From: Lineus longissimus
Lineage: Eukaryota > Nemertea > Pilidiophora > Heteronemertea > Lineidae
Direction of reading: 5' to 3'
DNA length: 64,000 bases
NCBI RefSeq assembly: GCF_910592395.1
Contig: NC_088321.1
Span: 620,001-684,000 of the forward strand
How positions within the stretch are numbered: the stretch's first letter is position 1; every line of letters starts with the position of its first letter. The notes below the pieces were generated by a model, which was not told the DNA's origin, searched no databases, and worked only from the letters and a program-made list of their open reading frames with translations. Below, in pieces: positions 1-57,400 of the stretch. The position numbers and the translations under genes were made by a program.

Positions 1-3000
1 GAGATTACATTATGTTTTAATCAACCCAGATTAAACTTTGAAATTTTTGGTGTGAATTGCCAAAATAAATCCACGCAAATACTTGGTGTTTTACAGTATT
101 GTCACATGATTGTACTGGTGTCAGATCCACTTACTAGTTCCAGAAACTAGCAATAGGGGGAGAGGGCAACCAATTTGATTGCAGCAATCACCATGTGAAA
201 CTCAAATATTCGCTTATTAAGTGAATGGCTGCTTCAGAGAAAATAGCGGGTAGATGGCGGGCAATACCAATTGCTTGTTTGTGATGCGCTTTTTAATAAC
301 AATTGGTTCGGGTCGAATCTAGAGCGACTTTTCACAAACGTCGCCTTGAGAAGGTTTTTAAGCCAATAAGAATCCACTGACAACAACCGACATATCTTGC
401 AACACGGACCATGATTTCCACAAGAAGCAGTCTATATATCACAAATCAAGACAATTTTCCATATAAAATCCTACAATGCCCTATATTTATCAAAAGGCAA
501 ATTGTCTGCATGATTTCGTAACACCCTGTGCAACCAAGTTTGATTGACATATATTCTATTTACCTTTGTGATGAGTGTCTGAGAAACACAATCTACCTAC
601 ACTAAGGAATGAAAATCAAAGACAGAACAGCCTACCCAGGGCCAAATACAACTTTCAACATGTGTTTTGGCTGTCCCGCTGACTGAACACCCTCCCTTGT
701 TTCGAGCTTGCGTCAGAAATTGCTGACAAAGCACAAGGTTACCCTGGTCAAAAATGGACTTGTCCCGATACTAAATAAATCCAATGCACTGAAAAGTCCA
801 TTTTTGACCTAAGGGGTGAAAGGGTTGATAGATAACCCCACAATTTGGTCAAAATTGAAGTCTCAACATTTGAGGGTATGACTTCCTTGTTTCTGTGCCA
901 TGGCATACACGACTATTTTCGCAACCAAAATGGCCGACAAAAAGGGCTTTTTAGAATACTTCCGCAAAAGTCACATGATAAGACCTTGATGACAACTTGG
1001 CTGCGTGAAATAAATAAACAATAAATATTGGAAAATGAACAAGGCATCACAAAATTCTAAATCCGAGATGCACAGATATTAAAGTCCAGGCAGGTCACAT
1101 CAAGTTATGTCACATCCAGTAACGGTAGTATGGAAAATAACTCGAATATCATTTCATTCCTTCTTTTCTCATTAGTATATTAATTCATTCATAAATAATG
1201 GATAATTATGCTAAGCACAGTTCATGTTGTTTTTACTGTCCGACTGCAATTTTCAATGTAGGTTGCGTTGTTTTACAATAGAAATTGATACCTCACTGTC
1301 GAAAAAGCTCCCCTTACCAAACACTGCCCAGATGGAGCTGTCCTTTTGTCCCAAACAGCCTTAGCAAGACCCTTGGTTTAGGTCGACATTTCAGCTCCAT
1401 CCTCGCATGTTTTTTGAGACAACCCGTACTCTGAAACTCAGGACTGAAGTATAAACAGCTACAACCTGCAAGCTTCACAATAAATCGCAAAATTTTTACA
1501 CCCTTTTCTAAAAATTTGTAACAAACCTCAAGATTTTATAATTTTTATTTGGCAAAGTACATGACTTCTTTCAGTTTTTCCAATCAAAAAAAAATTTGGC
1601 AATTTTTATTTGCGCACATCGCAATTATTCATGAAATCAGCGAAAAAACAACGCCCGTCAAATTGGGCGATTGAAAGTCGCAATCTGCAGACATTTATGG
1701 CCTGAAATTTATTCCGTACCACGAAGTATGCATATTAACTGTTTCTGTTTTCATAAGCAGCGTTTCCAATTCATCCTCATCACAAATTATCAACACGTAG
1801 GGTTGTACATCATACACAAAACTTAATAGTACAGGAAAAACGTAATAACTATATTTAGACACTTTATAGCATTTGACTGAAAATGAGTCTTTGGACAACC
1901 TTGGCCAAATACTGTGGCATTTTGCACATTTTTTTGATAAAGTTGTATATTTTGACTATAATATCACACACGTGTCCACTAAACATAGATTTTATATTAA
2001 ATTTGAAGCATGTGCCCAGGCTGTCAAATTTTCATAGCTACATGTAATTTGAATTGCCTTTTATAAAATTTATCCAGAAGCTCCACGCTGGGGAATTGGC
2101 AACACGCTCTCCGAGTGGTGCCCACATCTACGAGGTAAGGGTAACCACCTCTTCGAGTGAATCCAGCTACAAATTGAAGTCTAACTTTGAACTGGACCCT
2201 TACAGTTTGGCCTGGCTTTGCCAGGACACCAAAGGAGTTACGGGTTGGCTTCCATATGAGGCTTGATTCACTCGGAGAGTAGATAAGACTCAGAGAGGTG
2301 GCAGCCCTCGGAGCGGTGGCTGCCGATTCTCCAGGGTGAGTTATAGACATAGAAAGCAGCGTCAATTGAGGTAAAGCCAACAGCAAAGGATGATTAATCA
2401 TCTACTCGAAAATGCTACTCCAGTTTTTTTCCGTGTTGGTTTGAAAATGATCCCAGTTGATCAGACGTAATATGTTGAAAAGAAACGACAAAAATTCCTA
2501 AATCTACAAACACAACAAACCAAGTAACCTAAAAATAATTTATAGAAAGATGACAACTGTGAGGGGGGGGGAATTGACCTACTAGATCAGGAGGAACCCA
2601 AGTAGGCCTACTTGTTTGTGGTCTGACAATGATCCACAACCAATCCACTGTGACGTTGATGCTAACATCATATACCCCCAGCCCCTCCACTCCCACAATT
2701 TGGGGGTAAATGTATGTGCGTTGACCCCCCGCCCGCGGAAAACATATTTTATCAAGTTGAGGTTATTTGTGAAATCTGTAGACGTATAACACCCTATAAA
2801 ACAGACGATTTACAAATTGCCTCGCCACTGTGACCGAGATGACAGGGCCTAGTGACACTTGAGTCGAGTGATATGAACATTGAGTATTGGCTGTTTAAGA
2901 CTTACAGGGTGTCACAAAAAATCCCACAAACGATCACAACATGGCAAGGATAACTTTAGAATCAAACCCATGCCCTCTCGATCATGTGTCTGTCAGCATA

Positions 3001-4708: not shown

Positions 4709-7700
4709 TCAAGAATCCACATCAGTCCCCTCCCCCACTGTCAACTCACTGTCACTCTCTGATATTTTCAGATCTTGAATGCACGTTTTCGCCTCCTCAA
4801 CCCACGACTCAATACGTTCCTTATCCAGTGATTTGATTCGTTGGGTCAGGCTCAGTGGGGTCAGTTCGGGGTCGGAATGATGGTCAACGGGTGTGGTGCT
4901 CCCCTTTATCGGGGTCGTGGCCCCGAGAGTTTTTGATGAATGTGTCGACAAGACTTCCGAATGCTGCGAGAGCATCTCAGTGTTATTGTCCAATCCGCAT
5001 AAATTATGAATGGAGTCAATATGCGGTAACTCCTCGACCGTGTCGTTATCATTGTCATCAAACTCCTCAGTGGCGCCACCAGTGTCCTCTTTAAAACAAC
5101 TCAAACTCCCCGATTTCACTTTCAGGGTGTCCTGCTTAACATCGCCACTTTCGCCATCTAACTTCCCAGAATTCACCAAATCAATCTTCGAGTCGATTTT
5201 CGAATTCAGCGGGTCGTCTTTATCCAGAATGATATTCATGTGTTTCAACATGGCGTCGTTCAATTCCTCCGTGTCTGCTTCATTCCCTTCGTCGATCGAT
5301 TCAGCGATCGAAACCTTCCCGAGACTCGAGTTACGTGAATGTGTCAGGTACTGACGGCGATCTTTCGGCGCAAGCAAACTCGGGCTCTTGTCGTCCACTT
5401 TCCTGACATCATAGTCGTTGTCGTTTTCAGATATCGGCTCCGACAGTAAGGAACTCGCGAACGATATGCCGCTGCAGCCTGAAAAGGTAGAAAGAGCGCG
5501 ATTGTAATTTTGACACGAGACTTCAATTGTTTGAATCCTGGGAACCAGGTCACCTATCGTAAATGACTCCACAGAGAGTTGAGACAGTGATCTTTCCATT
5601 CCAGGAATCAAATTAAGCATTTACAGTAGAATAAGGACACCCTTTGGGCCTGAGGAGTGCTGTCCTTAATAGGGTGGTGTCCTGATTAGGGAGGTCAAAT
5701 TGAATGGAAACAACCAATCTGGGACTAAAACTAATGTTCATAGTAGAGAGGTTGTCCTTGATAGAGAGGTGTCCGCTAAAGGAAGGTTCTACCGTAGTGA
5801 GAGAAAAGTTCTGAAATGCTTCCAGAATGTGACCGTTTGCTTACCTGAGGGGGTACGAGAGTGACCCATGTGGGCGTAAACAGGTTGATTACAGAGGTTC
5901 TTCAAGTGATGTACCTCCTCAGCCTCCATCTCTTTGACCATCTTCGCGTACTGCTGACGCGCATCTTTTGTCAGTTCCATGAGCTTGTGGAAGTTTTCCT
6001 GGGGAAAAAGTTATTTTCATTTTGAATTCATTTCCATTTTCACTTGCGTCAGAAATTCATAAGTGAGCTTCCCTAACTCGTTTAGCTGTCATGCTACAGA
6101 AGTGATGTGTCTTTTGGTAACAACTCAGTCACATCAATTTTGGCAAAAAAACCAGCACTGCAGTGCCAACATCTTTGGGACATGACTGTACAGATGGCTG
6201 CAAATAGCCTGGGTGCTGCCTATCTCCGAATTTTGCAGTTTGGCGCAGACCAGCCCCAACAGAGGGCGACTGTGGGCAAACACAAATGACACATTCCGCC
6301 CTGGTCAAGTTCACCTCCAAGATGATGACTGTATCCGACATTTAACGCCTCTAACTGATTTCAAGATGGCGTCCGATAGACAGACGAGAACTTACCTCCG
6401 AACCTTCGTAATTGAAAACTCCAGCGACGCTGACAGGCACGAGCTTGGCGCACGCCCGCCCCAAGGCCCGACGGCCGAGGGCAAAGACAAATGGCACCTC
6501 CTGTTCAGTACACATGTGGATGATGTTGTTTAGGGCATCGTCAAGGCCTCCTGTAAATGGAGGAAAGATATTTTTAAGGCAAGATTCAGAACAACAAAAC
6601 CCAAAATTACATTGATCAGGAACAAATGGTACCATGAGAAAGTGCTCATCGAGAGCTTTCCAATGAATGGTCATGTCAATAGGTTTCCAAATGGTACCAT
6701 CAGAAAGTGCTCATCGAGAGCTTTCCAATGAATGGTCATGTCAATAGGTTTCCAAATGGTACCATGAGAAAGTGCTCGTCCAGAGCTTTCCAATGAGGGG
6801 TCACGTCAATAGGTTTACAAATGGTACCAGGAGAAAGTGCTCATCAAGAGCTTTCCAATGAGGGGTCATGTCAATAGGTTTACAAATGGTACCATCAGAA
6901 AGTGCTCATCGAGAGCTTTCTAACGAATGGTCATGTCAATAGGTTGGAGAATTATGACGCAGTGGAACACTTCAACACCCAAGTGGAAGGCACCAGAAGT
7001 TGCCTCGAATCGTCAGAGAGAAACTTCCCTTCAGGGCTCGGAGATTAGTCGAGAGCTTGTCAACGCACATCCCAATTCAAATACATATCACTACAGTTTC
7101 TAGTACAGTCCGATATCTGCATGATCAGCCCCAAAGACACATGCGTTCAAACCCACACATTGCATACCTTTCGCTTTAACTCGCTCCATGTTCGGCGAAA
7201 TAATCACAAATTTGATTTTCTTCAACTTGAGATGTTTGGCGACTTCACGAAGACCGAGAACGATACGGCGTTTCGACTTGGCTTTGACGGGATCTTTGTG
7301 GTAGAGACGGTCTTGGAATCGAACGAGGTCTTGTAGCAGGAGGGTACAGCAGTCATCAATGTCCTTGTCTATCACCTGGTTACAGTACCTAAAGAATGAA
7401 ATATTTGTCATTAGTTTATAGACAACTTTGGATCTTCTGACTCGGCTGGAGCTGGCCTCGTTTGTTTTCTGAGCATGGCAATCTATCAACCTGGTTCAGA
7501 CTCGACTCCATCATCAGAGAAAGTGGCACTCCCCTCATCAGAGAATGTGGCACTCCCCTCATCAGAGAATGTGGCACTCCCCTCATCAGAGAATGTGGCA
7601 CTCCCCTCATCAGAGAATGTGGCACTCCCCTCATCAGAGAATGTGGCACTCCCCTCATCAGAGAATGTGGCACTCCCCTCATCAGAGAATGTGGCACTCC

Positions 7701-10700
7701 CCTCATCAGAGAATGTGGCACTCCCCTCATCAGAGAATGTGGCACTCCCATCATCAGAGAATGAGGCACTCCCATCATCAGAGAATGTGGCACTCCCATC
7801 ATCAGAGCATATGACACTCCACTTATCAGAGAAAGTGGCACTCCAATCATCAGAGAACGTGGCACTCCCCTCATCAGAGAATGTGGCACTCCCATCAGCA
7901 GAGAATGAGGCACTCCCATCATCAGAGAATGAGGCACTCCCATCATCAGAGAATGCTGCACTCCCATCATCAGAGAATGAGGCACTCCCATCATCAGAGA
8001 ATGTGGCACTCCCATCATCAGAGAATGTGGCACTCCCATCATCAGAGAATGATATACCAGACACAGCTCTTTTGTGTGAACTTCACACCGACAACCTTTC
8101 CTAAAAAGCCCAAGTACGTTTCAAAATCATCTCAAAGGTCCAAACATGACATTTTCAGATGCAGCACCACCTTGTGGCAGCATTGAGAACTTACTCTCTA
8201 AATCGTCGACTGTGGAGTTTCAATGCCGCCGATGACTTGGTTAGATTCAGGCCTCCAGCAATCGGAGAGTTCACCCCTGAACTCAGTGGCGATCCGGGCG
8301 ACAGTGGGCTCATGCTGATCGGCGAATTTTGTGAAATTGGAGACATGTCATTACTGGCTGGCGTGAACATATCAGATGTCTTCGAACTCATACCTGAAGA
8401 TGTATAAACAGATGTTTATTTTTCATCGCAACTTAACAATGTTCACCCGAAGCGCTGGCTTCAAATTTAACCTGACCTGAACAGCGCAGGTGTCCTGATA
8501 AGAGAGGTCAAATTGAATGGAAACAACGAATTCGGGGCCAAAACTAGTGAGGGTGTCCTTGATAGAGAGGTGTCGACTTAGGGAGGTTTTATAGTAGTAT
8601 CAAAGATATCAATCAAACACCCGAAATGATGTCACAATCTGATTCACTTCAAGAGCAACCAACTGTGACAGTATTTTCAACGCGAGTGATCTGGGTCGCA
8701 CTTCATCAACCACAAACAGTACCTTTTGTGCATTATATCAATTCAATACTCTATAACCATATTTGAAAAAAGGCCAAACCAATTTGATACCTTGGATAAC
8801 TGCCTATTCCACCAAATTTGGAAATTTTCTTTCTTCTTTATACAGTGGAACCTCCCTTAGCGGACACCTCTCTAGTAAGGTCACCCTCTCCATTTAGGGC
8901 AGTTTGTCAAATTGAGCACTCCGGCGGATTTTTCTCCCTGAACAAGGAAGGGCCTCCGCACCAGCTCACCAAATAGTTCCTTTGTTGTGTTGTGGTGTCC
9001 ACGAAGATTTTGCCCCAGAAGACAGACAGAACAAGTGTCTGGCCCATCTGTGCATGACCAAGTAATGTTCACGATCTGGGCTGTAGGAAAGGTATCGTAT
9101 TGTGGAACCTCCTCATCGGACACCTCTCTAATAAGGACCCTCCCTATGATGGACACTAGTTTTGGTCCAAACATGATTGTTTCCATTCAATTAGACCTCT
9201 CTGATGACAACACCTAGCGATAAAATGGGTATGGCGTTCGCATTTTAATGTTGATCAGGAGATCAACTGAGTTGGCTTCATAAACAGAATGTGCGGCGAT
9301 CAGGTCAACACTGATGCAAAATCAGATCTGCAGGTACAGGGAGATGAATACCACCTATAATACACTGCTGGTAAAGTGCTTTCCAACAGAGCAGAATATG
9401 GTAGGGAGGGGGGACCTGACAAGAATGGTCATAAAAGCTAAATTAAGGTACTGATTGAATGTTCGACAAAACATTACGATAAAAGCAGAGATTGAGTCAT
9501 GACAAATTAGGCCAACGTGCCTTTCGATATATTTGGGCCAGATATCTTTGGGCTGGCAGCCAGGAACCCAACAAGACATGATCGCCTGAGATTTTCAGTA
9601 CAAGTGAACTTGTTTACATCTGTTTTCATGATACTAGTGCACTCCTGCGTAATGCCGACAGTCAATATGTCACCCAGACGTTAAACAAGTCATTGTGAAC
9701 ATTTTGAATTAAAGGGGTACGCTGTTTGTAATTAATGGTGGCCCAGGAAAATGGTATGTAGTTATGCTGGAGGGCAGTTACTATGGATACGAATTGGCTG
9801 AAACTCAGTACTTGTATATATGTCTACACAACGAGAATGCAAACATTTATATTTAGTATGTATTTGTAGAATTTGACATTTTCAAATTCATTGAGAATTT
9901 TTAACGAAAGGCGTAGGCTCAATTGGGAAGGTTTGGTGGGACCGAGAGTGACCACCTGCAAAAGAGCTTTTTTATTCTGGCAGCTAAGCAACTATAGACT
10001 AAAGGCTGACAATGATGGCATATACATAAGTTATGCTTGGTACAGTGTTAATACCTACAAAAGCAAGTAAGAGTTAATTTGTGGGAGGAAAAAGGCTGAA
10101 ATTGAATTAGAATGCTATAAGTTATTAGAAATAAGTCATGAGTTGCTATTGCTGAAAAGCATTAGATATCTGTGCACCCACCCCTCCCTTTTGTGATGTC
10201 TTGGGTACTTGCATGATACCGACAGCCAAATTGACAACTCAGCAGGTGGGTCAACCTACTAAGTTACTGCTGCGAACCTAAAGCGTGCTGCAGACTAGTG
10301 ACTTTTATCAGGGGAATGTGCAATATTGATCACATGTGACAAAAATCGCCAGTCGACTTGGGTAATTACAGGCACCTGTAGTCAAGGCTGTGATGTACTA
10401 TAGCTATCAAAGTGATTTCATTTCATCGCATTTCACTGTAGACAAGTAATCTTTGTATTGCTAACTGCAGACAAGCAATACTGCAGTGATAAACACTGCA
10501 TGTCTTTGCGATAAAGATACGTAGCCCATGGCCGGCTCAATTCTGTTATCTGGGTATCGAACCAGCTTTACGCCCATATAAGGTGCTATTCTGGCCCTAA
10601 GGGCCTAATTTTCGAATGGACTCACCGTAGGCTAAACCAGTGTCCTGCGATAGATCACCGTTACTGCCCGGCCCATTGCAGGAGACCCAGAAACCAGTAA

Positions 10701-16700: not shown

Positions 16701-19700
16701 TACACCTCCCTGTACACACATGCTGTTACAACCAAAGAACTCCTTCCCACTGTACTCACCCTTCCACCCCTACTTCCTCGACTATTTGACCGTGAGCCCC
16801 CGCCCCTATTCGAGTTCCACTGTCCCCGCTTCTGAGGTTCTGAACTCTGATTCAAAGCCGCCAAAAACGCCTGCCCACCGTCGAAAACTCCTTGGGCGTT
16901 CGTGAACGGCGTCGGTTGACCTATTTGCGGAGGAGCCAAATTCATGTTCATCGGGTACGGTGGTTCCAGGACTGGCTGATAGGGGGCAGCAGGTGCTATC
17001 ACAGGCGATATGCTGAACTGTGGTTGGAAGTTTCCGTAGGGTGACGCGTAGCTGGTGTAATGCCCCGCTGGGGCCCCTCGCATGTGGCCTCGTCCCCGGC
17101 CCCTGCCGCTCTGAGGTTGCTGGTTTGGCCATCTGTGAAAAAGACAAGAAACAAATAATTGGTTCGGAGTGTGACGTTCTAAAATATAACACCAAACTGA
17201 AATACACACCACCTTAGAAGCGTGTGCCACATTGAAGGGAGGGGTCAGATTTAAGGGGGTTCTCTCTCAACCTTTTTGTTTTTGGCCCTTTTTGGCATCT
17301 CAGGTCTGAGTGTCTTGTTCAAGGACACAAAGACTCAACAGAAAAGACCGCCTGGGAGTTGAACCCACAACTTTCCGAGCTCAGCCAATGAGCTAAATGC
17401 AAAAGGGTTGCAATCTGCCTAAACTATAAATCCGATATCCCAGTTCCTGGATATCGTTATAAATCACTTACTGAGCGGCATTCTGTGCGTATGGGTCCGT
17501 CTGAACAAAAGGGTAGCAATTGGTCATGTACTCGGGGATATCACTACACGCTGGTGAGCCATCGTTCATCTCGGGACTGACGGGAATGAAAACCTTCGCT
17601 TCAACGGACAGCCGACTTGCGGCCTGAAAGTAAAAAGTTCAAATCACTATTATAGGTCATGGGAAAAGCTTGTCTAGTTTGTCTCCACCGCTGGGATTAA
17701 CACGCTCGTTATATTAATACATACATCATAGTTCATGAACATGAAATACGTCAACAAGCCTTATTTATCATATTAGCAACAATAAAAACACAGTCAATAA
17801 TCCATGTGTAAATAGTTGAGGAGAATTGATTGATAAATATATTGATTGGAATGCATTGGGAGCTCTCGACATAATTTGTCAAATATCAGTAAGTTGTTAA
17901 CCCTTCATGTCACAGGGAGCATTAGTACAAATGAGACTTGAGTTCATTAAAATGTGTCGTTTATGAAATTAGATTAGATTGAAGTTGTTATAAAGTGCTT
18001 CCCACTGACCTCTTGTGACCTGACCGTGACTCAACCATGACAAAATGACGAGTGATCGCGATTCTACATTCCAATTCCACAATCAATAAGAAATCGCCAA
18101 ACGTTTTCTGGTACATACTCATACTGTTAATCAAACAATTTCAAAAAATCGGCCCAACCCAGTACCACAATGAGATGGCAAATGGGTTGTTAACCCAATA
18201 AAATTTCAAGTGCGTAACTTCAACTTCAGTTGAACACGTACATTTGGCATTGTCCTCTATACCGGAATTCCGATCAGTGCATGTGACAGATGGTTTGAAA
18301 TGGCACTCAAATCAGTCGACCGTTTCTGCAACTCCCAGGCGAGACTCGTGGCCATTGTCAAAATGAGGTCAACAACTGTACCTACCTCAAGAGCAACAAG
18401 ACCATACACTTGTGGCACAGAGAAAAGACAATGCATGTGTAATGATGATGTGTTGTTTGTAAAGTGGAACCTCCCTTAGCAGACACCTCTCTATTAAGGA
18501 CAACCTCTCTATTAAGGACACTAGTTTTCATTTTGATAGAACTGTAGTATTTGTAATTGTATACCTGTCTACAAAATGGCATGCTGAAATTCATATTCAG
18601 TCCAACATAAAAATAACAAAATTCGATTCTTTTGGAAATAAACAATACACGATATAGGCCTTTAGGAAAATCTGTTTCTTTGCACATCATGTTACTTCCG
18701 ATTGATTCTGTATAGATTAGACGATAAACTGAAACGTTGTGATAAACGGCTGTCTGGTGTGATACAATTCACACCAGATCATGGCAGATGTGCGAAATTA
18801 CCAGGGTACAAACTAACGTTTTTTGTTGCTTTGTCATCTGTAACTGTTAATCATTACAGCCCTGGACGGCTGCCCCAGAATGTGCAGTTGGCTGCCAAAG
18901 AGAAGCCATTCTTTTTTTGTACAAACATTTGAAATTGAACATTTCAATGGTGTGTACGTTTAAAATACCTTCAGAAAACACTAAACACACAGGACACACT
19001 CACTCTATGTTACAGCGATAGTCGTTTTGGCCCCAATAAATGGGTCATTTCCAATTTGACTTCTGTAATCAGGACACCTCCCAAAAAGGACAGCATATGC
19101 CAGTCCAAAAGGTGTCCTTTAATAGAGAGGTTCTACAGTACAATACGAGGGGGGTCTTGCATTTAGAACACAATAAAAACAGCAAGTATTTTCACCAATG
19201 TGAGTCATGATAGATCTTCAATCACCAGATCAAGTCTTAGGTCTTAATACCCACTCAAGCGAATCCAACACTTTTTTAAACTGGCAGATCTAGGTCAAGT
19301 TATTATTAATATTATACTTATCATCCAATATACATTCCTAATACGTCACGGGAAGAAATGAAAGGGTTTTTGTCCACCTATTCAGAGCCCCTAATAGTAA
19401 AGTTCATAATGATATTGTTTCACATCAGTTCACTGGGCCTGATGTAGGCCTAAATTGCCTACCACACAATGACATAACTGACAGCCTTCTATCAAATCTA
19501 TACCTCAGCTTAAACTTACAATAAACTTAAAGTTCACTAGGTCTTCATGGAATGGCCTAAATGGACCCCCACAATAACCAGCTGATAACCTGCTATCAAA
19601 TCTAGAACTTGGCATAGATGAACCAAACCGTATTTGGTCAAATAATAAATATTCACACCGATTTTTTTACAATTTGCAAAACAATTTCAGTTCTGCAGAA

Positions 19701-20718
19701 CTTGCAGGTGTTCATAAGACCTAAAGCGACTGTCGATTTGGAACCGTTGATTTATTGTATTGTATCGTCATCCACTTCGTGACTGTGCTTTAAGCCAGCT
19801 TAACTTCAAAGCGCTTAAGTCAATGGCCGACTTCTAGGCCATGAACATGATAAAGGAGATCCTCCATGGCCTGTGGGTTAAGCCGTGCCATATAACTGGG
19901 GGTACAGTACATCATCTCCCCCTTCGGACAAAGCTGACTCATCTTCGAGTCACTTAGCGACATCTAGCGTCTCTGTACCCAACTACAATCCAGAGCCCGC
20001 ATCGTGTGGGAAGGTATGCTTGATACGCGCTGGTCGTCACCTATCCAATTCGTGACCGCACTCGACGTTGCTTAACTTCTAACTGTGGGGCCAACCCCCC
20101 AACCACTAGGGCCTACGTCATACATGATATCCTCCATCAGTTGTCGATGGCCAGAGCCAGGGTCGGAGGGCAGCCGCATTTACGCGGAGACTGCAGAATG
20201 TCCACGTTGTTGGTGAGGCCTCCAACGGCATACTACAGTCCACCAAAGATATCGATGAGATTATCAAACGCAACGTTTATACAAGGTATATAGCTTACAG
20301 ACTGACAATGAATTAAAAAATGACTGACATTTAGACTGACTTCACGAGACTTGATGATGGCACACCCTGTCTATCTCCTCCTGCTCAACCAAAAACTGGA
20401 AACAGTGGCGTAGATTTGCTTGTCGTGAATATCAACACTTTAATCCTGAGTGATAGCAATACATGAGATTAAAACTGACATTAGTAACCCCCTGGAAAAG
20501 CCTAAGGCCACGCCTATGTATGCCTTAGCTGCCAGACTTAAAAATGTACAGGGATGTGCATGCACTTCCCTGTACACTTATTCATATGCATAACAAAATG
20601 GCAGCCACAGACAACTCAACACGAAAACACTCCCAAACAATCGCAATTTCTCCACGAGATGAACAACAACACTCAAATTCAAACCTACCCCTGCCTGCTC
20701 CGATTGCGTCTCTGTCAT
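4709..20718 (-). CDS. SECISBP2L: SECIS-binding protein 2-like (SECISBP2L/SBP2)
   Basis: This factor binds SECIS hairpins in selenoprotein mRNAs and recruits the Sec-tRNA elongation factor so that UGA is read as selenocysteine. Coding exons on the minus strand: 20689-20718 (tentative start), 17472-17623, 16760-17132, 16194-16344, 15088-15962, 13244-13385, 12570-12781, 11862-12141, 11068-11265, 8195-8393, 7168-7388, 6396-6550, 5845-5998 and 4709-5478. Phases join throughout and give about 1303 residues; from memory the human protein is about 1100. Landmarks are a TNCYPFVQ motif near the N-terminus, KLKKPSTLKKVILKEREEKK ahead of the RNA-binding domain, HSRRFREYCNQV, then the L7Ae kink-turn domain at about residues 871-996 with RIVLGLREVAKHLKLKK, FVIISPN and VPFVFALGRRALGR. 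HMGHSRTPS, SEPISEN and RIESWVEE in the tail match SECISBP2L rather than SECISBP2. Introns carry many repeats. The first exon (MTETQSEQAG) fits in phase but an in-frame ATG 66 bases upstream is also possible. Confidence 0.93.
5622..5797. repeat. Dispersed palindromic element, intronic copy
   Basis: A near full-length copy of a roughly 180-base family found at least ten times in this window. It begins with TACAGTAGAA and ends with GGTTCTACCGTA, so the ends are inverted repeats. Inside are reiterated variants of CCTCTCTATTAAGGACA in both orientations. It has no coding capacity and behaves like a miniature inverted-repeat element. It lies in the SECISBP2L intron between 5478 and 5845. Confidence 0.6.
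6624..6945. repeat. 65-bp tandem repeat, about five copies
   Basis: GGTACCA recurs at about 6628, 6693, 6758, 6823 and 6888, exactly 65 bases apart. Each unit contains AGAAAGTGCTCATCGAGAGC and CATGTCAATAGGTTT with a few substitutions. The array sits in the SECISBP2L intron between the two exons that encode the L7Ae domain. Confidence 0.85.
7510..8052. repeat. 24-bp minisatellite, about 22 copies
   Basis: The unit is built on TCATCAGAGAATGTGGCACT followed by CCCC or CCCA. Because 24 is a multiple of three and the unit lacks stops in several frames, the array is open in multiple frames on both strands and yields spurious repetitive ORFs. The left half is nearly identical copy to copy, while the right half carries more variants (CCCATCATC, ATGAGGC, one AGCATATGAC). 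It lies wholly inside the SECISBP2L intron 7389-8194. Confidence 0.95.
8846..9215. repeat. Two adjacent copies of the dispersed palindromic element
   Basis: A truncated copy begins near 8846 with ACAGTGGAACCTCCCTTAGC. A longer one spans about 9094-9212 and keeps the inner TTTCCATTCAAT..GACCTCTCT segment shared by all longer copies. A third fragment in the opposite orientation lies at about 8488-8596. All are in the 2.7-kb SECISBP2L intron between 8393 and 11068, which otherwise holds nothing I recognise. Confidence 0.55.
17282..17408 (-). repeat. tRNA-derived SINE-like fragment
   Basis: On the minus strand the segment reads GTGGGTTCAACTCCC, which resembles a tRNA B box. It is preceded by TTTAGCTCATTGGCTGAGC, which resembles an A box, and on the plus side is the GTCTTGTTCAAGGACACAA string that accompanies many animal SINEs. 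No complete cloverleaf can be folded. It lies in an intron of SECISBP2L. Assignment as a SINE relic rests on these boxes only. Confidence 0.45.
18461..19142. repeat. Fragments of the dispersed palindromic element in SECISBP2L intron 1
   Basis: Pieces at about 18461-18540 and 19058-19142 carry the CCTCTCTATTAAGGACA core in opposite orientations. They could be the two ends of one element opened by an insertion, or two separate fragments. The rest of the 3-kb intron (17624-20688) shows no coding exon that I can support. Confidence 0.45.
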
Positions 20719-21547
20719 ATCCGTATTTTTAATCACCAGATTTTTGTAAGAAAGGTGGATTTTTGATAATTTTTCTGACGGCAATTTACCGTCGGTGCCA
20801 TAGCGAAATGCTATGTTGCTTTTTGGTGTTGAGTGGTCACGTGACGTGTCTATTTATGTCACACGAGTGCAAGTGCGCGCTAAATTTAAACTCGATATCA
20901 CGGGTTCGAATTGCGTTTTCATGGGTGTTGGTTTACAGCGGTATATTGTGTTGGTCCAGAGCTTTCCGCAGAGTGGAAACACGATGGGGTTGTCGTGAGC
21001 AGGCGTGGTATTCGGCTAAACTCGAGACACCAAAACACCAGTCTAGTGAAGGGGTGTTAATAAAGGCTCTTGGAATTTAGGCCCATTCACAGGCATACAC
21101 AACAAGCCTTTCACAAGATTACAACATTTGTTACTTTCTGTACGCCGTCGACTCCAGATGGACTTGGTCGTCCTGAACAGCGTCAAGTTTCCCTGATTTT
21201 CCACGTGTTTCATTCTATTGTTGGATCCAAAGATTGAAGATGGAGACATTGTCACATTCTGACGACCATGCCGATCCATTGTCATTGTGTGCGAGACTTT
21301 AGGACTGATGTTCGCAGTCGATAAGTCAGAATGTCTGAAGACAGAGTCAATGTCACAACCAGACAATCGAAGGACGGAGACAAAGTCACAAAAAGACATA
21401 CCAGTAAGGAGTTATCACAACCACCATAAACACACTGCTCCTGCACAATGCAGCCAACCAGATATTTGAAGTGGACTGGTTATGCCCTTGTCCAGGCATT
21501 TTGCATGTAGGTATATAAAACATAACAAAGATATTTTGTATGAATAA
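20719..21547 (-). promoter_or_regulatory. Probable SECISBP2L upstream region
   Basis: This is the gap between the tentative SECISBP2L start and the poly(A) signal of the Rdx selenoprotein gene, so it should contain the SECISBP2L promoter and any 5' UTR. Near 20838 there is TCACGTGACGTG, which overlaps an E-box (CACGTG) and a CRE-like TGACGT half-site. No conventional TATA box placement is clear. Calling it a promoter is inference from position. Confidence 0.4.
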
Positions 21548-21553
21548 TTTATT
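21548..21553 (-). terminator. Poly(A) signal AATAAA for the Rdx selenoprotein gene
   Basis: AATAAA on the minus strand lies about 520 bases after the TAG at 22074 and about 345 bases after the SECIS element, so the mature 3' UTR would keep the SECIS. This is the first canonical signal downstream of the stop that I found. Confidence 0.5.
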
Positions 21554-21893
21554 GTATGTCTGTATTTTACACAATACCTGAGAGTTTAGATAGCGACGAC
21601 AAAAAAGGAATGAAGTATTCAGCGAAATTGTCAATAATCAGTCCTCAGTGACTGAATAGAAGCCAGAAGTTCAGTTGTATTGTACTACCGATAAGATATG
21701 TTTCATCTGTTCCTATAATTTAATACTTTTTGTCAAAACTCTCAAAATGTCAGTTTCATGATTTTCGTAATATTTCTGACACAACCTCGGTCAAAACAGT
21801 TCCTTAAGATTAACCATGGTTACAGTATTTATATGATTGTTAACCCAAACTTTTCCCATCTCGACTTTCGAAGTCCTTGGGCGAAAAGAGTCA

Positions 21894-21959
21894 CCAAAAC
21901 ATCGAGCTCAGACCTGTGAACTTTAAGACTGAAGCTTTCATACGCGGATCATGTTTTAG
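21894..21959 (-). promoter_or_regulatory. SECIS element (selenocysteine insertion signal)
   Basis: On the minus strand, ATGAA at 21941-21937 and CGAT at 21904-21901 flank a helix, giving the non-Watson-Crick quartet UGAA/CGAU typical of eukaryotic SECIS. The helix strands are AGCTTCAGTCTT and AGGTCTGAGCT: AGCT pairs with AGCT, CAG with CTG, CTT with AGG, with one bulge and one T-T mismatch. The apical loop AAAGTTCAC starts with the conserved unpaired AA, 13 bases after ATGA. A basal helix CTAAAAC/GTTTTGG closes it. It is about 115 bases after the stop codon of the CxxTGA Rdx gene, the expected place. The basal internal loop is unusually lopsided. Confidence 0.78.
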
Positions 21960-22010
21960 CGCAAGGACGTGTCGGGTCAAAAAATGAGGGTAGTTTGGTG
22001 TATTGCATAG

Positions 22011-22055
22011 GGTGGCATCTCAGAGTCGCCAAGTCATGATTCTGAGAGCGCCACC
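22011..22055 (-). other. Strong hairpin just after the selenoprotein stop codon
   Basis: GGTGGC and TCTCAGA on one arm pair with TCTGAGA and GCCACC on the other, 13 pairs with a small internal loop and a 16-base loop. It starts 19 bases after the stop. It lacks the UGA/GA quartet and AA loop in the correct places, so it is not a second SECIS. A role in RNA stability or recoding is possible but unsupported. Confidence 0.6.
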
Positions 22056-22073
22056 TCTGGGTACTTCAGAGTT

Positions 22074-23160
22074 CTACAAGATGCTACATCCTGGACTTTC
22101 TGACTCTGTGATCTCATGCGGTTCCTCTCCTTGGAGCCCTCGCCTCACCTCCTCAATCACCTGGAAAAATACCAAGAAGAACGTCACATAATGGAAACTT
22201 GGCCTCCTAGATGACTCGACAGACAACCAACGATAAAGGTTGAGTGTTTCCCACTGGGACACCATAAGGGACTAACAAAAAATTATTTGGTTAGAATGCT
22301 CCAACAATAGTTATTCCATCATCATTCATTGATTCAATCAATAACTTTCCCTGGACAGACCAGCTCGGCAAGTTGGAATGCCAGTCTGATTCTCAGCAAG
22401 CTGGGGAACTGATTCTCGAAGGTAATACTCACAAGTTTGGCTGGAGGGAATCCATGCTGCTTTAGCTTAGAGAACACCACCTTCCCATTGACAGTCACCT
22501 CGAACGATGCTGCAAGAAAATCGAGCCAATTTAGAGAAAATTCCAACAGTGGGGATATTTAAAACAATGGTAATAATGGTTTTTCCTGTCGTTTGTTCTT
22601 CATTACTTACATGATCGTCCACCAGCTCCTGTCACCTCCGCCTCCGGGACTGCTGCAACAATCTGGTATCGCAGGTCCTGGTAGCGGCCGCCATACCCTC
22701 ATGCGGTACTGGAAACAGAACAAGAATAACGTTACATGTATTTCTTTTCTAAACCTCACTCCCATTGGGATCATGCCGATCCACCACCGTTGTGCGTATG
22801 TCCATCATGTCCGAGGTCGGCTTAGCCTAGGCCTTCTGACGATTGGTTCTGTTCTGTACGTCTGTAAACTTAGCAAAGCCAGATCAGTGCCAATCAGTTT
22901 TCACTCAAAGTTGATAGGAAGAGTCGGGGACGACTTGCAATAATATGGTACAGAATATCCACAGTCGACAGTGTACATGACTACCGGTACACCAGTCACA
23001 ACCACCATGTCATGTCTGTCTTCACATCTCATGACAGGACAGAAATCACCTCAAATTATTTGGCTACAATCTTAATCACAGCCGCGATTACAAAAAAATC
23101 AATTGTAAAATGTTCGACAATATCTTACCAATGTTCTACATGAACTTTCACACTCCCCAT
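22074..23160 (-). CDS. Rdx-family selenoprotein (MIEN1/SelW-like) with in-frame TGA
   Basis: A thioredoxin-like fold protein of the Rdx family (SelW, SelT, SelH, MIEN1/Rdx12), thought to act in thiol redox control. Exons on the minus strand: 23129-23160, 22611-22708, 22433-22509 and 22074-22160, phases consistent, 97 residues. Exon 1 gives MGSVKVHVEHC, the Cys codon being split by the intron. Exon 2 opens with T-A-TGA-GYGGRYQ, so the redox site is C11-T-A-U14 with selenocysteine read from TGA at 22699-22701. Exon 3 has SSFEVTVNGKVVFSKL, very close to the MIEN1 beta strands. The protein ends in CSIL, a CaaX prenylation box as in MIEN1. A SECIS lies in the 3' UTR. Reading TGA as a stop would end the protein at 13 residues and leave three well-conserved exons without a function. 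Confidence 0.88.
22699..22701 (-). other. TGA selenocysteine codon in the CxxU redox motif
   Basis: This TGA is residue 14 of the Rdx protein. The codon follows Cys11-Thr-Ala and precedes GYGGRYQ, the exact place of Sec in SelW-type proteins. Family alignment downstream is uninterrupted and the SECIS at 21894-21959 supplies the recoding signal. Confidence 0.85.
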
Positions 23161-24341: not shown

Positions 24342-25976
24342 CTAGAGCAGCGTACAGCAGCTGCTATCCTTTGTGACTATAATCTCATTTGGCTCCTCAC
24401 CGTTAGCTGCCCGCTTGACTTCAAACGCCACCTGAAACGAAACGATCTTTTTGTAAACCACCGATTTTTTTCTGCCAAAAGTAAATTTTTGTTTTAGGGA
24501 TTGCCAAAATTTCTTTTGGTTTCCCCCGATTTTTATGTCGCGACAAAGGCTTTCTTTCCTCCAACTCAGAGCTCCAATTTGAGCGAAAGTTTAAGATTCA
24601 TAGGCTTTGAGACGTTCCCCTTTCCAACTCACCTCAAAGGAATCTTCTATAGAAATCCCCCCCCCCCACCACCACCACCACCGCAACCATTAAAACGCCA
24701 TTTTTTAGGGTAGGATTCTTGATACTTACGCGGTCGTTGGGAGGGAAAACCTTGCACCTGAGCTTAGAGAATATCCGCTTTCCATTAACCATCACCTCGA
24801 ACGAATCTGCAATTGAAATGTACATTTAAACCAAAAGGACAGATGCCATTTTTATGCACCAAGAATATTTAGATCTCATGAATAATTCTTTCGACAATAT
24901 CTGTGTCCACACATGTACATGTAAAGTGGAACCTCCCTTAGCAGACACCTCTCAATTAAGGTTACCCTCTCTATAAAGGACACTAGTTTTGAACCCAAAT
25001 TGGTTGATTCCATTCAATTTGACCTCTCTAATCAGGACATCTCTCTATTAAGGACTGCATTTGGAAGTCCAAAGTGCGTCTCTAATAGAGAATTTCTGCT
25101 TTAAATTGGACTTAGCAGTGCATAATGTCTATGCATGGATTCATGACGGGGATTAATCATCAATATTCCATTCATGGATTTATGATAGAGAATCTCCATT
25201 TGCACAGGACTGCAATGACTCCTGGGAAAGGGTTACCGCTTTGTCCACTGCTCCCAGTGACGTGTGCCGTTGGAACTCGAAGACTGATGAGCTGCTCCAG
25301 CTCCATGAAGCGAGGCACGTAACCTTCCTTGGTACTGAAATAAACGTGAAATAGAATGAATAAACATCAATAAACTAATAAATAAATAAAATGAATAAAC
25401 ATGAATACTAATGAGCTGCTCCAGCTCCATGAAACGAGGCACGTTCCTTGGTACTGAAATAAACGTGAAATAGAATGAATAAACATCAATAAACTAATAA
25501 ATGAATGAATGAATAAATATATAAATATATAAATAAATAAATAAATAAAATGAATAAACATGAATAAACATGAATAGAATGTTACTTTGCATCTGAAAAT
25601 CCATAATCCGCACCGGGGGCCTACCTCAGGAAAGGCGTTTTAAAAATTATGTCGGGATTAACATAACTACCCCTGGCCCGACCCTGCAGTGCACACCGAA
25701 CGGTTTAATAGGGACATAGCTCCGGCAGATTTGGGAGATTACTGGCACAATGTAAAAAATACAACAGTATGAAAAAAGGCCTAGTCTACACACAGTCACA
25801 TGACACAGTAGGCCTACGCTGTCATCTGTCATTGCCAATTTTTGACACATTTGTCTAGAAAACCGAGGTTGACAAGCGGTTTCCTAGACAATCTTTGCTC
25901 TGATTTCATAAACATGAATTGGAAAATGTGTAGTTAGACCTTACCAATGTTCCACCTCAACTTTGACGCTCTGCAT
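24342..25976 (-). CDS. Rdx-family paralogue with Glu at the Sec position
   Basis: Exons on the minus strand: 25945-25976, 25237-25334, 24730-24806 and 24342-24431. Their lengths are 32, 98, 77 and 90; the first three equal those of the selenoprotein copy downstream, so this is a tandem duplicate. The 98-residue product starts MQSVKVEVEHC, then T-K-E-GYVPRF: the position of selenocysteine is GAA (Glu), not Cys or Sec, so the CxxU/CxxC redox pair is lost. DSFEVMVNGKRIFSKL is conserved and the C-terminus CTLL is a CaaX box. The 5' leaders of the two copies also share GATTTTTGT..GTGCCTTT. I found no SECIS downstream. It is probably expressed but not a classical thiol redox enzyme. Confidence 0.85.
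24657..24683. repeat. C-rich homopolymer and CCA run in Rdx paralogue intron 3
   Basis: A run of C followed by CCACCACCACC lies in the intron 24432-24729, near the exon 3 donor side. It explains a spurious poly-Pro reading frame on the plus strand and has no other visible role. Confidence 0.6.
24921..25103. repeat. Full-length dispersed palindromic element in Rdx paralogue intron 2
   Basis: The most complete copy in the window. The left end TAAAGTGGAACCTC and the right end GAATTTCTGCTTTA form imperfect inverted termini. Between them are four CCTCTCTATTAAGGAC-type subrepeats, the first two facing the last ones across a TTGATTCCATTCAATTTGAC centre. No target-site duplication is obvious. Confidence 0.6.
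25345..25575. repeat. AATAAATGAA-rich low-complexity tract
   Basis: AATAAA, AATGAATAAAC and TATAAATA units fill intron 1 of the Rdx paralogue around the duplicated exon fragment, and probably drove that local duplication. Confidence 0.7.
25406..25453 (-). pseudogene. Duplicated, broken piece of Rdx paralogue exon 2
   Basis: Upstream of the real exon 2 (25237-25334) the first half of that exon is repeated, together with its 3' splice site and the flanking intron. The copy lacks five bases after CCAAGGAA, so splicing to it would shift the frame, and it has no matching donor. It leaves a decoy acceptor about 120 bases before the real one. Confidence 0.8.
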
Positions 25977-53679: not shown

Positions 53680-54483
53680 TGCAGTTCGACGCCTGAAAAA
53701 GACAAAACAGAGTCATTACAATGATAAACATGTGACCACACAAAATTCAATCAGGGACAGGGTCACCGGTCAGGGAGACGATTGCAGGGATTCAATCAAT
53801 CATCGATCAAAAACAACTTATTATCAAAGTTGAAGTTAGTGGTCTGTGCACTGGATACTCATTCACCTACTAACTCGATCAAATTCTCAATCTACAACTT
53901 TGGGACGTTTATAGACGACACAACTCGGAAACAAAAATCGGGAAAGACACCCTTTAAATTTTTGTCAGTGGTGCCGTCTACCGGATTTGCTACCTCGCAA
54001 CCAAGGTAACTAAAATGTACATATTGTGTACATTTTGTACAACAATTGGTGTCCTGGGAACGAAGTTGAAAATGCTTGACGACTAAATGTTACAAAATGG
54101 CGGTCGGGAGACCAGCCTGACAGAACCTGAACAAAAATTCTTCGAAAAAACATAAATATCTCGGAATTGGTTCAGTAGATTTCATTGATATATCGCCTGC
54201 GTGATCTGAAGGTACAGGACTTGAATATTTGCGCAAAATTGGTGTAAAATGGCGTCGAAATTACTCTAATTCAAGCTCTAAAACTAAGCCTAAGAGCCTG
54301 GACAGTAGTAGCTCTGTACATTATGAACACTCTGTCCCTCTGTACATTATATACACATTCCTATAATTTAGCACAGAGTGTCCCGGGTATTCTGCAGTTG
54401 CTCCGAATTTTTAAATGTACAGTTACATTTGTTTTTCTTCAGCAGAAAAGCCCAACAGGAACTGAAGCACACACAGCCTAATC
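53680..54483. promoter_or_regulatory. Head-to-head promoter region
   Basis: About 800 bases separate the zinc-finger start (minus strand) and the TMEM232-like start (plus strand), so both promoters must lie here or share a bidirectional one. An AAAATGGCG-type motif occurs near 54095 and 54247. The immediate 5' leader of the plus gene is probably spliced, because TTTTTCTTCAG precedes the ATG by about 40 bases. Confidence 0.45.
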
Positions 54484-57400
54484 ATGCCGATCTCTCGTGT
54501 CCCCATCCTGCATAAGTTTGGGATCATCTCGCACAGTCAGAGGCTAGAGCTGCAGGAGCGTCTTCTGAAGCAGTCGTACCTCCAAGCAGTCGGAACAAAA
54601 CCAGCTGCGTCCCAAGCGAGGAACCCAATAGAAGTAACCGACGAGTTTATCAATCAGTATAACTCGTCGCGTTCGTTTGACGAGAAGGAAAAACTGGAGG
54701 AGCTGGCTCATAAGATGCTGGAGAGAATTAAGGTAAGCTTTGTCCTTGGGCAGGTAACTTACTTTGATTACGAGTCATTTGACTTTGAATGCGACGTAAA
54801 ATCGAAGTTCCTTTTACATAGTGGCTTCTAATTCTAGGGCGCGCGAAACAAAAGTATTCGATGAGGATGCCGTCTGGCATCTCAGTGAAGACTTGAGATA
54901 ATTTGATGGACTTTTCATCAAACGTTAAACTGGGCCAATAGAGAGGTTAAGATTAACTTCCGATCCTTTTTCAGAGGAGAGCAGGGCTTCGAGATGGTGG
55001 CAAAGGTGGCCATGTCGACCTTCCGATAGCTTGGACTGAACTATCTCAACTTGCACAGTGCAAGGGGGTCATACAGGAAGGTAGGTCAAAGAAGACTCTC
55101 CGTGCTCGTCAATGGATTCTTCTTCTGCCTTGGCTTTTGAAATTTACTAGATGAGCACTAGACAGTCTGTTTTCGGTAACCAAGTTGGCTGTCCTAGAGA
55201 GATGTTCCATAGACCACCAGAGCTTGTGTTCAGAATAGTGTCCTTTGGCAAGTATACCTCTCTATTCGTCAATAAGGAGGAGGTCTGAAGCACCCGGCAC
55301 TGGCTGCAGACTGATGCGGTGGACCGGCCCTACAGGTGTCCCTAACGGGGAAGTTCTAGTGCACTATCTTTTGCAGACTGTCTTGATGTTCTCATCAGCT
55401 CCCTGGACCAAGCTCCCCTCGCAAAAGCGCACATCCCGGCCCTATTCTACCTGGCAGAGACCTGTCTATACTGGCTGAGAACCGATGCCGTCAACCAACC
55501 GTATCTGAGGACCGGTGAGATCAAACTGTTGAAGATGGGCCAGTTAGTATTTACACGATTGTTTTACCACCACATGGCAGGACAGCTTCAGGGGCAGAAT
55601 GATTTCAAGGGCAGGCTGTTCACGTACCTGGACGGTAAGTAATGGCCCTCCCCTAGGTTTCTACTCAGCAATTTTTGTACCTGTACAAGTATTCCAAAAT
55701 GACTCCCCTATCTCGGAGATCGTCAACAAAATCTTGGCTCCCCTATCTTGGGAACTTAGTGAGTGACAGTTCTGCTTGCTTATTATGTTTGTGACTGGGG
55801 GTGGGGGGGTCGGGGTAATGTATTTTAGCTCTTCGGTATTGCTAGTATTACACAGCTCAAAATCATGACAAATCTATAAGATAGTAAACAAGTTTCATCA
55901 GCAGAGAGAAGGGAGGTTCATACCCCCTTCTTCTTCCAGTTAGGAGGGGTATTTGTGACACCCCTGTCTTCGCCGTCCTACCTACTGGCAGAAACCCTGA
56001 GAGGCGACGCAATCATCTGACTGACATATCCATCGTATACTTCCACAGGTTTTGCTGAATGTCAAGAAGCGTACAACCCTTACCCAAATGCCTTGCTCTC
56101 ACTTCGATACATCAACGAGGTCGGCAAGATTGTCATCGGTGACGCCAATATCGAACCTGGTGAAATCAAAGAAGGAGACGCGCTCGACAAACAGAGTTTG
56201 ATTGAAAGTCTTCACAGCAGTAAGGAACGCAGGAGCTCCACTAAAAATAGCACATCTGTGAACACTGCCAAGGTATGTCTGGTAAAGTCAACTCACTTCT
56301 TACTCACTTAGGGCCTGGACAGTGGATTAACCCTCTTCTTTGTAGTATAGTTCGGCAATTCTGCTTAAACGAATGATCTTATGATTTGGTTTCAAAAATA
56401 TGTTGGTAATTAACCAGATATATCTGACTTAATTTCAGGACCAATTCCGGGAGGTGTCAGCAAATTATGAACCAACCACTGCACAGACTTCCAAAAGTGG
56501 TGCGCTGAGTTCGAGCGTCCATGATCTGAGCCCGACGCTATGGCACACCCTCGATGTGTGGCGGTGCAGTAATAGTCTCGGTGGGGGATTGGATGAGGCT
56601 GTGTACGCCATGTCACAGTGTGGGAAGGGCATGGCTCAGGAGAACTGGTAAGTGGCAGTTTGTGTCAAGGTTACCTACTGCAAGGGCTGATCTGGGGTTC
56701 AGACTCGACCCCATCCCCCCACGATTTGCGTCACGCATGTGTGCAGTGGCATACCCTCAATGTTTGATGGGCTGAAGCACCTTTGTTTGTTAAGAGTTGA
56801 AGGCGAAAGAAGGAGAAGTCACCAACCCAATCTGGATTTGAAGTTTCTATTTTGATTTTGAAGATATTTCAGTGATCTCTATTGTTGTCTAGTGGGATTG
56901 ATCGTGGTCTGTTGATTGATTTACGGCTTCAACGATTTCCTCTTGCCCTCCTCAGAAAATATAAACAACAATAAAATCATTTTTCAGGGTGGATGCAATG
57001 TGCGCGTTAAGCGTCTTGGCCGAGGCCGCGAAGACAAACCTGTATGTTCTGAAGGCGATGCAGAATCTTGCCCGGGGGATGAAGCTCCAGTCGCCCAAAC
57101 CGTCGTTACCGCGGCAACAGTCGACGCACTATGAGACCATCACCACAGGTATGGAGGAAACCGCACTATTTTCAGAAAATTTTTAAAAATTTTTTCTTCA
57201 GATATCATTGTCAAGAGCTCCCTGAACCATGTTTTAAATGAAAGCCGTACCAATGCAGTGCGGAGGTCAGTCAGTGGTTGAATTGTCAGGCTTTTTCTTT
57301 GGAATATTTTGTCTACTGATCTCTGGACGTTTCACTCAACGTTTCACTCTCTGCAGAGAATGCCTTGCTTTCAATCCGTGCACTGGGGGGTATGGGTATA

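Follow-up and report, generated by a model that had tools for sequence, protein, structure and literature searches.

We asked whether a gene on the minus strand of a 64,000-nucleotide stretch of the Lineus longissimus genome (hereafter the window) is disabled by its one in-frame TGA, or whether that triplet is read as selenocysteine (Sec). Our evidence is computational: the structure of the gene, its homology, the position of the TGA codon, and the presence of tRNA-Sec loci, an SBP2 domain and a SECIS-like element. The gene, here called copy A, very probably encodes a selenoprotein of some kind. It is very likely an intact SelW2/MIEN1 (Rdx) selenoprotein gene for which the candidate SECIS at positions 21959–21894 is the working element.

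Gene structure and protein family of copy A

Copy A comprises four exons with GT-AG borders. Exon 1 (23129–23160, minus strand, 32 nt), defined by its GT donor and the joined frame, encodes MGSVKVHVEH plus a trailing TG. Exon 2 (22611–22708, minus strand, 98 nt), which contains the TGA, is delimited by AG/GT sites and Rdx homology. The joined frame also defines exon 3 (22433–22509, minus strand, 77 nt), along with its GT-AG borders, and exon 4 (22074–22160, minus strand, 87 nt including the stop). The first-pass annotation of this DNA had proposed four exons that, only with read-through of the TGA, form a continuous frame for an Rdx protein of 97 residues. This proved correct: the join is 294 nt, giving 97 residues and a TAG stop, and its sole internal stop is the TGA at 22701–22699 (minus strand), residue 14. 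Since exon 2 is 98 nt long, skipping it would break the frame. Standard annotation could plausibly split the gene.

In the profile and PDB searches the programs treated Sec as Cys. The copy A protein matched Pfam Rdx with an E-value of 3.4e-17 (62.9 bits, against a curated cut-off of 22.6) and NCBIfam CXXU_selWTH with an E-value of 7.9e-17. Its best match among solved structures was human MIEN1 (2ljk; E 4.1e-16, 62.3 bits, residues 3–96), in an alignment that spans both sides of the TGA. Among PDB sequences, mouse SelW matched far more weakly (E 8e-4, 22.9 bits). Judged by these PDB sequence scores, which put it nearer MIEN1 than SelW1, copy A probably belongs to the SelW2/MIEN1 subgroup. The protein ends in CSIL, a CaaX-like sequence resembling the CVIL of MIEN1, described in the available text of PMC3527542 as a prenylation motif.

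The TGA (22699–22701) aligns with the second Cys of the CEPC motif of MIEN1, in keeping with the earlier claim that it occupies the Sec position of SelW proteins. It completes the CxxU motif CTAU (residues 11–14) close to the N terminus, in the context CTAUGY. These observations bear on the view that copy A has recently become a pseudogene by mutation of a Cys codon to TGA, with the hairpin described below being there by chance. A single base change (TGC or TGT to TGA) would suffice for this, but the lone internal stop among 97 codons falls on the family's one Sec/Cys site, and splice sites, frame and CaaX-like end show no other lesion. We regard a pseudogene as improbable on these and further grounds given below.

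The sequence directly after the UGA may also contribute to decoding. The 66 nt that follow it (within 22698–22611, minus strand) fold with −28.1 kcal/mol. Synonymous permutation gave a fold at least this stable in only 1 case of 300, and dinucleotide shuffling in 6 of 200. For the equivalent stretch of a tandem paralogue, copy B, the numbers were 71 of 300 and 35 of 200. The stable stem-loop that copy A has immediately after the UGA, and that copy B lacks, is possibly a Sec redefinition element; as 24 windows were tested, the fold result is suggestive only.

A SECIS-like element in the 3′ untranslated region

The candidate SECIS (21894–21959, minus strand), located with descriptors and with covariance models built from the genome's own elements, lies in the 3′ untranslated region; in the spliced mRNA, 387 nt separate it from the UGA. 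Read off the sequence, helix I is a 7-bp pairing of CUAAAAC with GUUUUGG (21959–21953/21900–21894). The motifs that follow, all on the minus strand, are a conserved A at 21941, the quartet UGAA/CGAU (21940–21937/21904–21901) and the apical AA at 21924–21923. Helix II, as delimited by the descriptor, has a 12-nt strand at 21936–21925 facing 21915–21905 and contains ten pairs, one bulged U and one U·U mismatch. The hairpin had previously been credited with this quartet, a 12-base helix and the AA loop; quartet and AA are as stated, and the full 12-base helix is not. The apical loop is open and 9 nt long, which we take to be form-1-like. A possible polyadenylation signal, ATTAAA (21719–21724, minus strand), recognized by motif alone, lies 3′ of the element.

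Descriptor scans find the SECIS core, with AUGA, apical AA, GA and paired strands, in the 3′ untranslated region of copy A. According to the text available from PMC3473315, AUGA_AA is the usual SECIS core of invertebrates except sponges. Against the candidate, with its form-1-like loop, stands the statement in PMC3328465 that invertebrates had so far yielded no form 1 element. A strict descriptor with an energy limit of −6 kcal/mol, written with the candidate element already known, gave 2 matches in the whole window, counting both strands, whereas 20 dinucleotide shuffles averaged 3.45. Its chance rate is about 0.01 per 350 nt on one strand. Another strict SECIS pattern gave six matches, three of them new candidates. 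Applied to 750 nt of the copy A 3′ region, a wider descriptor returned five rows, four of which start at the candidate's AUGA, two of these four with CGAU. The stability of the candidate's fold is unremarkable (z 0.21; 111 of 200 shuffles at least as stable). The SECIS reading rests on motif and position, since fold stability adds no support.

A separate hairpin lies directly after the copy A stop codon (22059–22010, minus strand). It is strong (z −3.88; 0 of 200 shuffles as stable), and within the window no repeats of it were found beyond 11-base matches.

Covariance models from the genome's own SECIS elements

Checking the SECIS with covariance models, as had been recommended, gave a divided answer. 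Rfam SECIS models matched neither the region nor the whole window, SECIS_1 remaining blank at E-values up to 10. Own-genome searches covered 391,118,348 bases in 30 contigs. Rfam SECIS_1 had seven matches across the genome, three of them over the cut-off; 4 of 14 prokaryote controls also matched, none over the cut-off. The SECIS loci listed by Rfam at E-values up to 0.05 were L006, L007, L008 (glutathione peroxidase, GPx) and L009 (thioredoxin reductase, TrxR; 30.1 bits, below cut-off). The L006 element sits below exons called Rdx by Pfam, which we assume to be SelT; no Pfam family matched the gene at L007. All four elements share AUGACGG...CCUGA and are of form 2.

A covariance model built from these four elements (R1) scored the candidate at 10.4 bits, rank 2 of 13 matches in the window, behind a 26-nt match that has no hairpin. 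A second model (R2), from three elements with TrxR left out, ranked the candidate sixth of 14 matches in the window, at 8.6 bits, and gave the left-out TrxR SECIS 31.8 bits. With so low an R2 score against that of the TrxR SECIS, the candidate departs from typical form 2. Two deiodinase SECIS are also divergent. One (L023, 1976–1913, minus strand) scored 14.3 bits with R1; the other (L022, 889–943, plus strand), with a 9-bp helix I, scored 7.1 bits, behind an 8.6-bit row on the opposite strand. Both share the 3′ motif CUCGAU with the candidate.

The third attempt, R3, combined the four elements of R1 with the two deiodinase elements, which were added once the R2 result was known; the candidate was excluded and the structure was set by hand. 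The L022 element was picked by position, motif and its 9-bp helix I, though another row at its locus scored higher. R3 ranked the candidate first of 17 matches in the window, at 17.1 bits against 11.5 for the next, with an E-value of 0.035 per 64 kb on both strands; the tool itself describes the calibration of such own-genome models as rough. The model recovers what Rfam misses, with R1 and R2 the weaker witnesses. The first-pass annotation had named the lack of a covariance-model hit as a refutation; this condition holds for Rfam and does not hold for R3. When R3 was applied to ten other loci, the eight without an Rfam pick reached at most 9.0 bits, although these negatives are not all clean, the GPx matches L025 and L031 starting at or after the model position of the Sec residue. 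The other two, L010 (22.5 bits) and L011 (16.5 bits), are Rfam picks below the cut-off and hence were not counted as negatives; the L011 match may be due to chance.

At L010, the SECIS-like match (1502–1558, minus strand; 22.5 bits with R3) lies close to an open frame with a C-terminal KDEL and perhaps marks another selenoprotein.

These scores also address the idea that the selenoprotein is real and its working SECIS lies elsewhere, for instance in a downstream 3′ untranslated exon, the candidate hairpin being incidental. There is precedent, as the SECIS of mammalian SelW and SelV sits in a separate last exon according to the part of PMC3316567 available, and the candidate stands apart from the four SECIS that Rfam lists in the genome. 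Against this, R1 over 19500–22080 ranks the candidate first (10.4 bits, E 0.052; next 5.8 bits), R3 has no better match in the 64 kb, and the only other core in the 750-nt scan, the fifth row of the wider descriptor, is weak at −1.8 kcal/mol. We give a SECIS elsewhere a slim chance and retain 21959–21894 as the probable working element of copy A.

A tandem copy with Glu in place of Sec

A tblastn search of the window with the copy A protein revealed a paralogue, copy B, upstream on the same strand at 25976–24342, which the first-pass annotation had missed. Its joined frame comprises exon 1 (25945–25976, minus strand, 32 nt), exon 2 (25237–25334, minus strand, 98 nt), exon 3 (24730–24806, minus strand, 77 nt) and exon 4 (24342–24431, minus strand, 90 nt compared with 87 in copy A), and it encodes 98 residues. 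The first three exon lengths and the phases are as in copy A. The C terminus is CTLL, again CaaX-like, and codon 14 is GAA (Glu), giving CTKEGY versus CTAUGY. The two proteins share 50 of 97 aligned residues. NG86 estimates are dN 0.485 and dS 1.468; with dS near saturation, they point to purifying selection only roughly. By codon position, the copies differ at 34/33/55 sites (96 codons, the TGA codon left out).

No SECIS-like match to the wider descriptor was found in the 750 nt downstream of copy B, and R3 returned no row at its locus (L004, copy B and more than 1 kb below it). The absence of both TGA and SECIS-like match from copy B lends added support to copy A being a selenoprotein gene. 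Copy B also returns us to the pseudogene explanation. Function could reside in copy B, and the candidate SECIS is invisible to Rfam; yet the match to MIEN1 is better for copy A than for copy B (E 4e-16 versus 1.6e-9), and R3 places the copy A hairpin first in the window. An intact copy A remains by far the better account.

Searching the genome with the copy A protein, all five scored matches fell on the two copies, copy A accounting for three, with E-values no higher than 2.5e-9, and copy B for the other two (E 0.94 and 4.1). The count of two copies is a lower bound, because a Pfam Rdx search of the genome returned no matches despite copies A and B and the L006 Rdx exons. Just upstream of the true exon 2 of copy B, in repeat-rich intron sequence, lies a partial duplicate of that exon (25454–25398, minus strand) with a frame-breaking difference.

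Selenocysteine decoding in Lineus longissimus

RF01852 had 20 listed matches in the genome, of which three exceeded the 47-bit cut-off (82.2, 80.3 and 48.3 bits); all 14 prokaryote controls also matched, five of them over the cut-off. ARAGORN identified the best two (L035 and L036, on different contigs) as tRNA-Sec with anticodon tca. TGA also occupies the expected Sec site in other exons. It is present in one of ten GPx exon matches (VNVASKUGFT) and in a thioredoxin reductase exon ending in GCUG. Of three deiodinase matches (L020, L021 and L019), two contain one TGA each (SCTUPP and NCSUPP) and the third contains none. Judged from these sequences, the Lineus longissimus genome decodes Sec.

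Nothing specific favours the idea that the TGA of copy A specifies a standard amino acid, or a stop under regulation, through read-through without selenium. It is scarcely credible given the tRNA-Sec (tca) loci, the TGA triplets at established Sec sites in further exons and the CxxU position of the copy A triplet. The first-pass annotation had argued that family alignment, codon position and SECIS agree; they do, the last as a SECIS-like element, and the tRNA-Sec loci, the other TGA exons and R3 strengthen the selenoprotein reading.

The window also contains an SBP2-type gene, likewise absent from the earlier account, on the same strand as copy A and downstream of it. Two stretches of open frame encode the SBP2 RNA-binding (L7Ae) domain (7429–7163 and 6551–6396, minus strand) and match PDB 7zjw (7zjw_B) with E-values of 7.1e-30 and 1.5e-14. 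Between about 17.6 and 4.7 kb (minus strand) lie open frames that, matched by eye, are presumably further SBP2/SBP2L exons, and on this reading the gene would begin about 4.3 kb below the SECIS.

A model for copy A and its relatives

An SBP2-type protein bound to a SECIS brings eEFSec and tRNA-Sec to the ribosome. We infer that copy A is transcribed and that the SECIS at 21959–21894 in its 3′ untranslated region would bind the SBP2-type protein of Lineus longissimus. This protein would recruit eEFSec and tRNA-Sec, so that UGA codon 14 would be decoded as Sec by virtue of the bound element. The predicted product is a 97-residue redox protein with a thioredoxin fold and a CxxU active site. Prenylation at CSIL would probably anchor it to the inner face of membranes. 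A more elaborate possibility is a selenium-responsive module, in which tandem Sec and selenium-independent Glu copies of a prenylated redox protein lie near an SBP2-type gene, and the post-UGA stem-loop and open-loop SECIS tune decoding when selenium is scarce; we consider this a long shot.

Copy A has known relatives. The text available from PMC3316567 reports a Sec-containing SelW2 from bony fish, frog and elephant shark, with Rdx12 (MIEN1) as the related Cys protein of tetrapods; that from PMC3828610 describes planarian, schistosome and Trichoplax SelW2 genes. With SelW2 selenoproteins known in fish, frog, flatworms and Trichoplax, copy A adds a member to a known family. It shares with SelW2 the Rdx fold and Sec in CxxU, and differs from published SelW2 in its species, a nemertean, and in its tandem arrangement with a Glu copy. 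MIEN1/Rdx12 (C17orf37) is the closest solved relative, with a similar CaaX-like end (CVIL versus CSIL), whereas it has Cys (CEPC) and no Sec, and about 20 extra N-terminal residues. SelW1 has the Rdx family and CxxU in common with copy A, though its sequence match is much weaker.

Copy B, for its part, recalls pufferfish SelW2c (CxxR), which on the available text of PMC3316567 is a SelW2-type protein that lost Sec to a non-Cys residue, with its SECIS lost or degenerate; copy B similarly lacks a SECIS-like match, while the replacing residue is Arg in SelW2c and Glu in copy B. Tandem selenoprotein clusters with SECIS-less members are known in invertebrates (PMC3473315, in part), and in vitro the SBP2L of Capitella can sustain the insertion of Sec (PMC3328465, in part). 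In the portions available of the open-licence literature, we recognized no account of the copy A gene, of a Sec/Glu SelW2 tandem or of linkage to SBP2.

Copy A extends SelW2 selenoproteins to what looks like a nemertean example, an invertebrate protein, predicted to carry Sec, that resembles MIEN1 along almost all of its length and has a CaaX-like end. Human MIEN1 is a cancer-linked membrane redox protein. The predicted presence of Sec in a MIEN1-like, CaaX-ended invertebrate protein suggests that human MIEN1 may descend from a prenylated selenoprotein predating the vertebrates. The tandem Glu copy provides a natural comparison, in which loss of Sec goes with absence of a SECIS, and the locus exemplifies a SECIS-like element missed by the Rfam model and recovered by a genome-specific one.

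Other features of the window

Beside the SBP2 RNA-binding-domain exon lies a tandem coding-like repeat (7415–8120) of SSENVALP/DEGSATFS units, with several frames open. Elsewhere, a scan of eight queries found no Pfam family for six; the same scan gave a weak match to TMEM232 at 54466–54831 (plus strand; E 1.4e-4, below cut-off).
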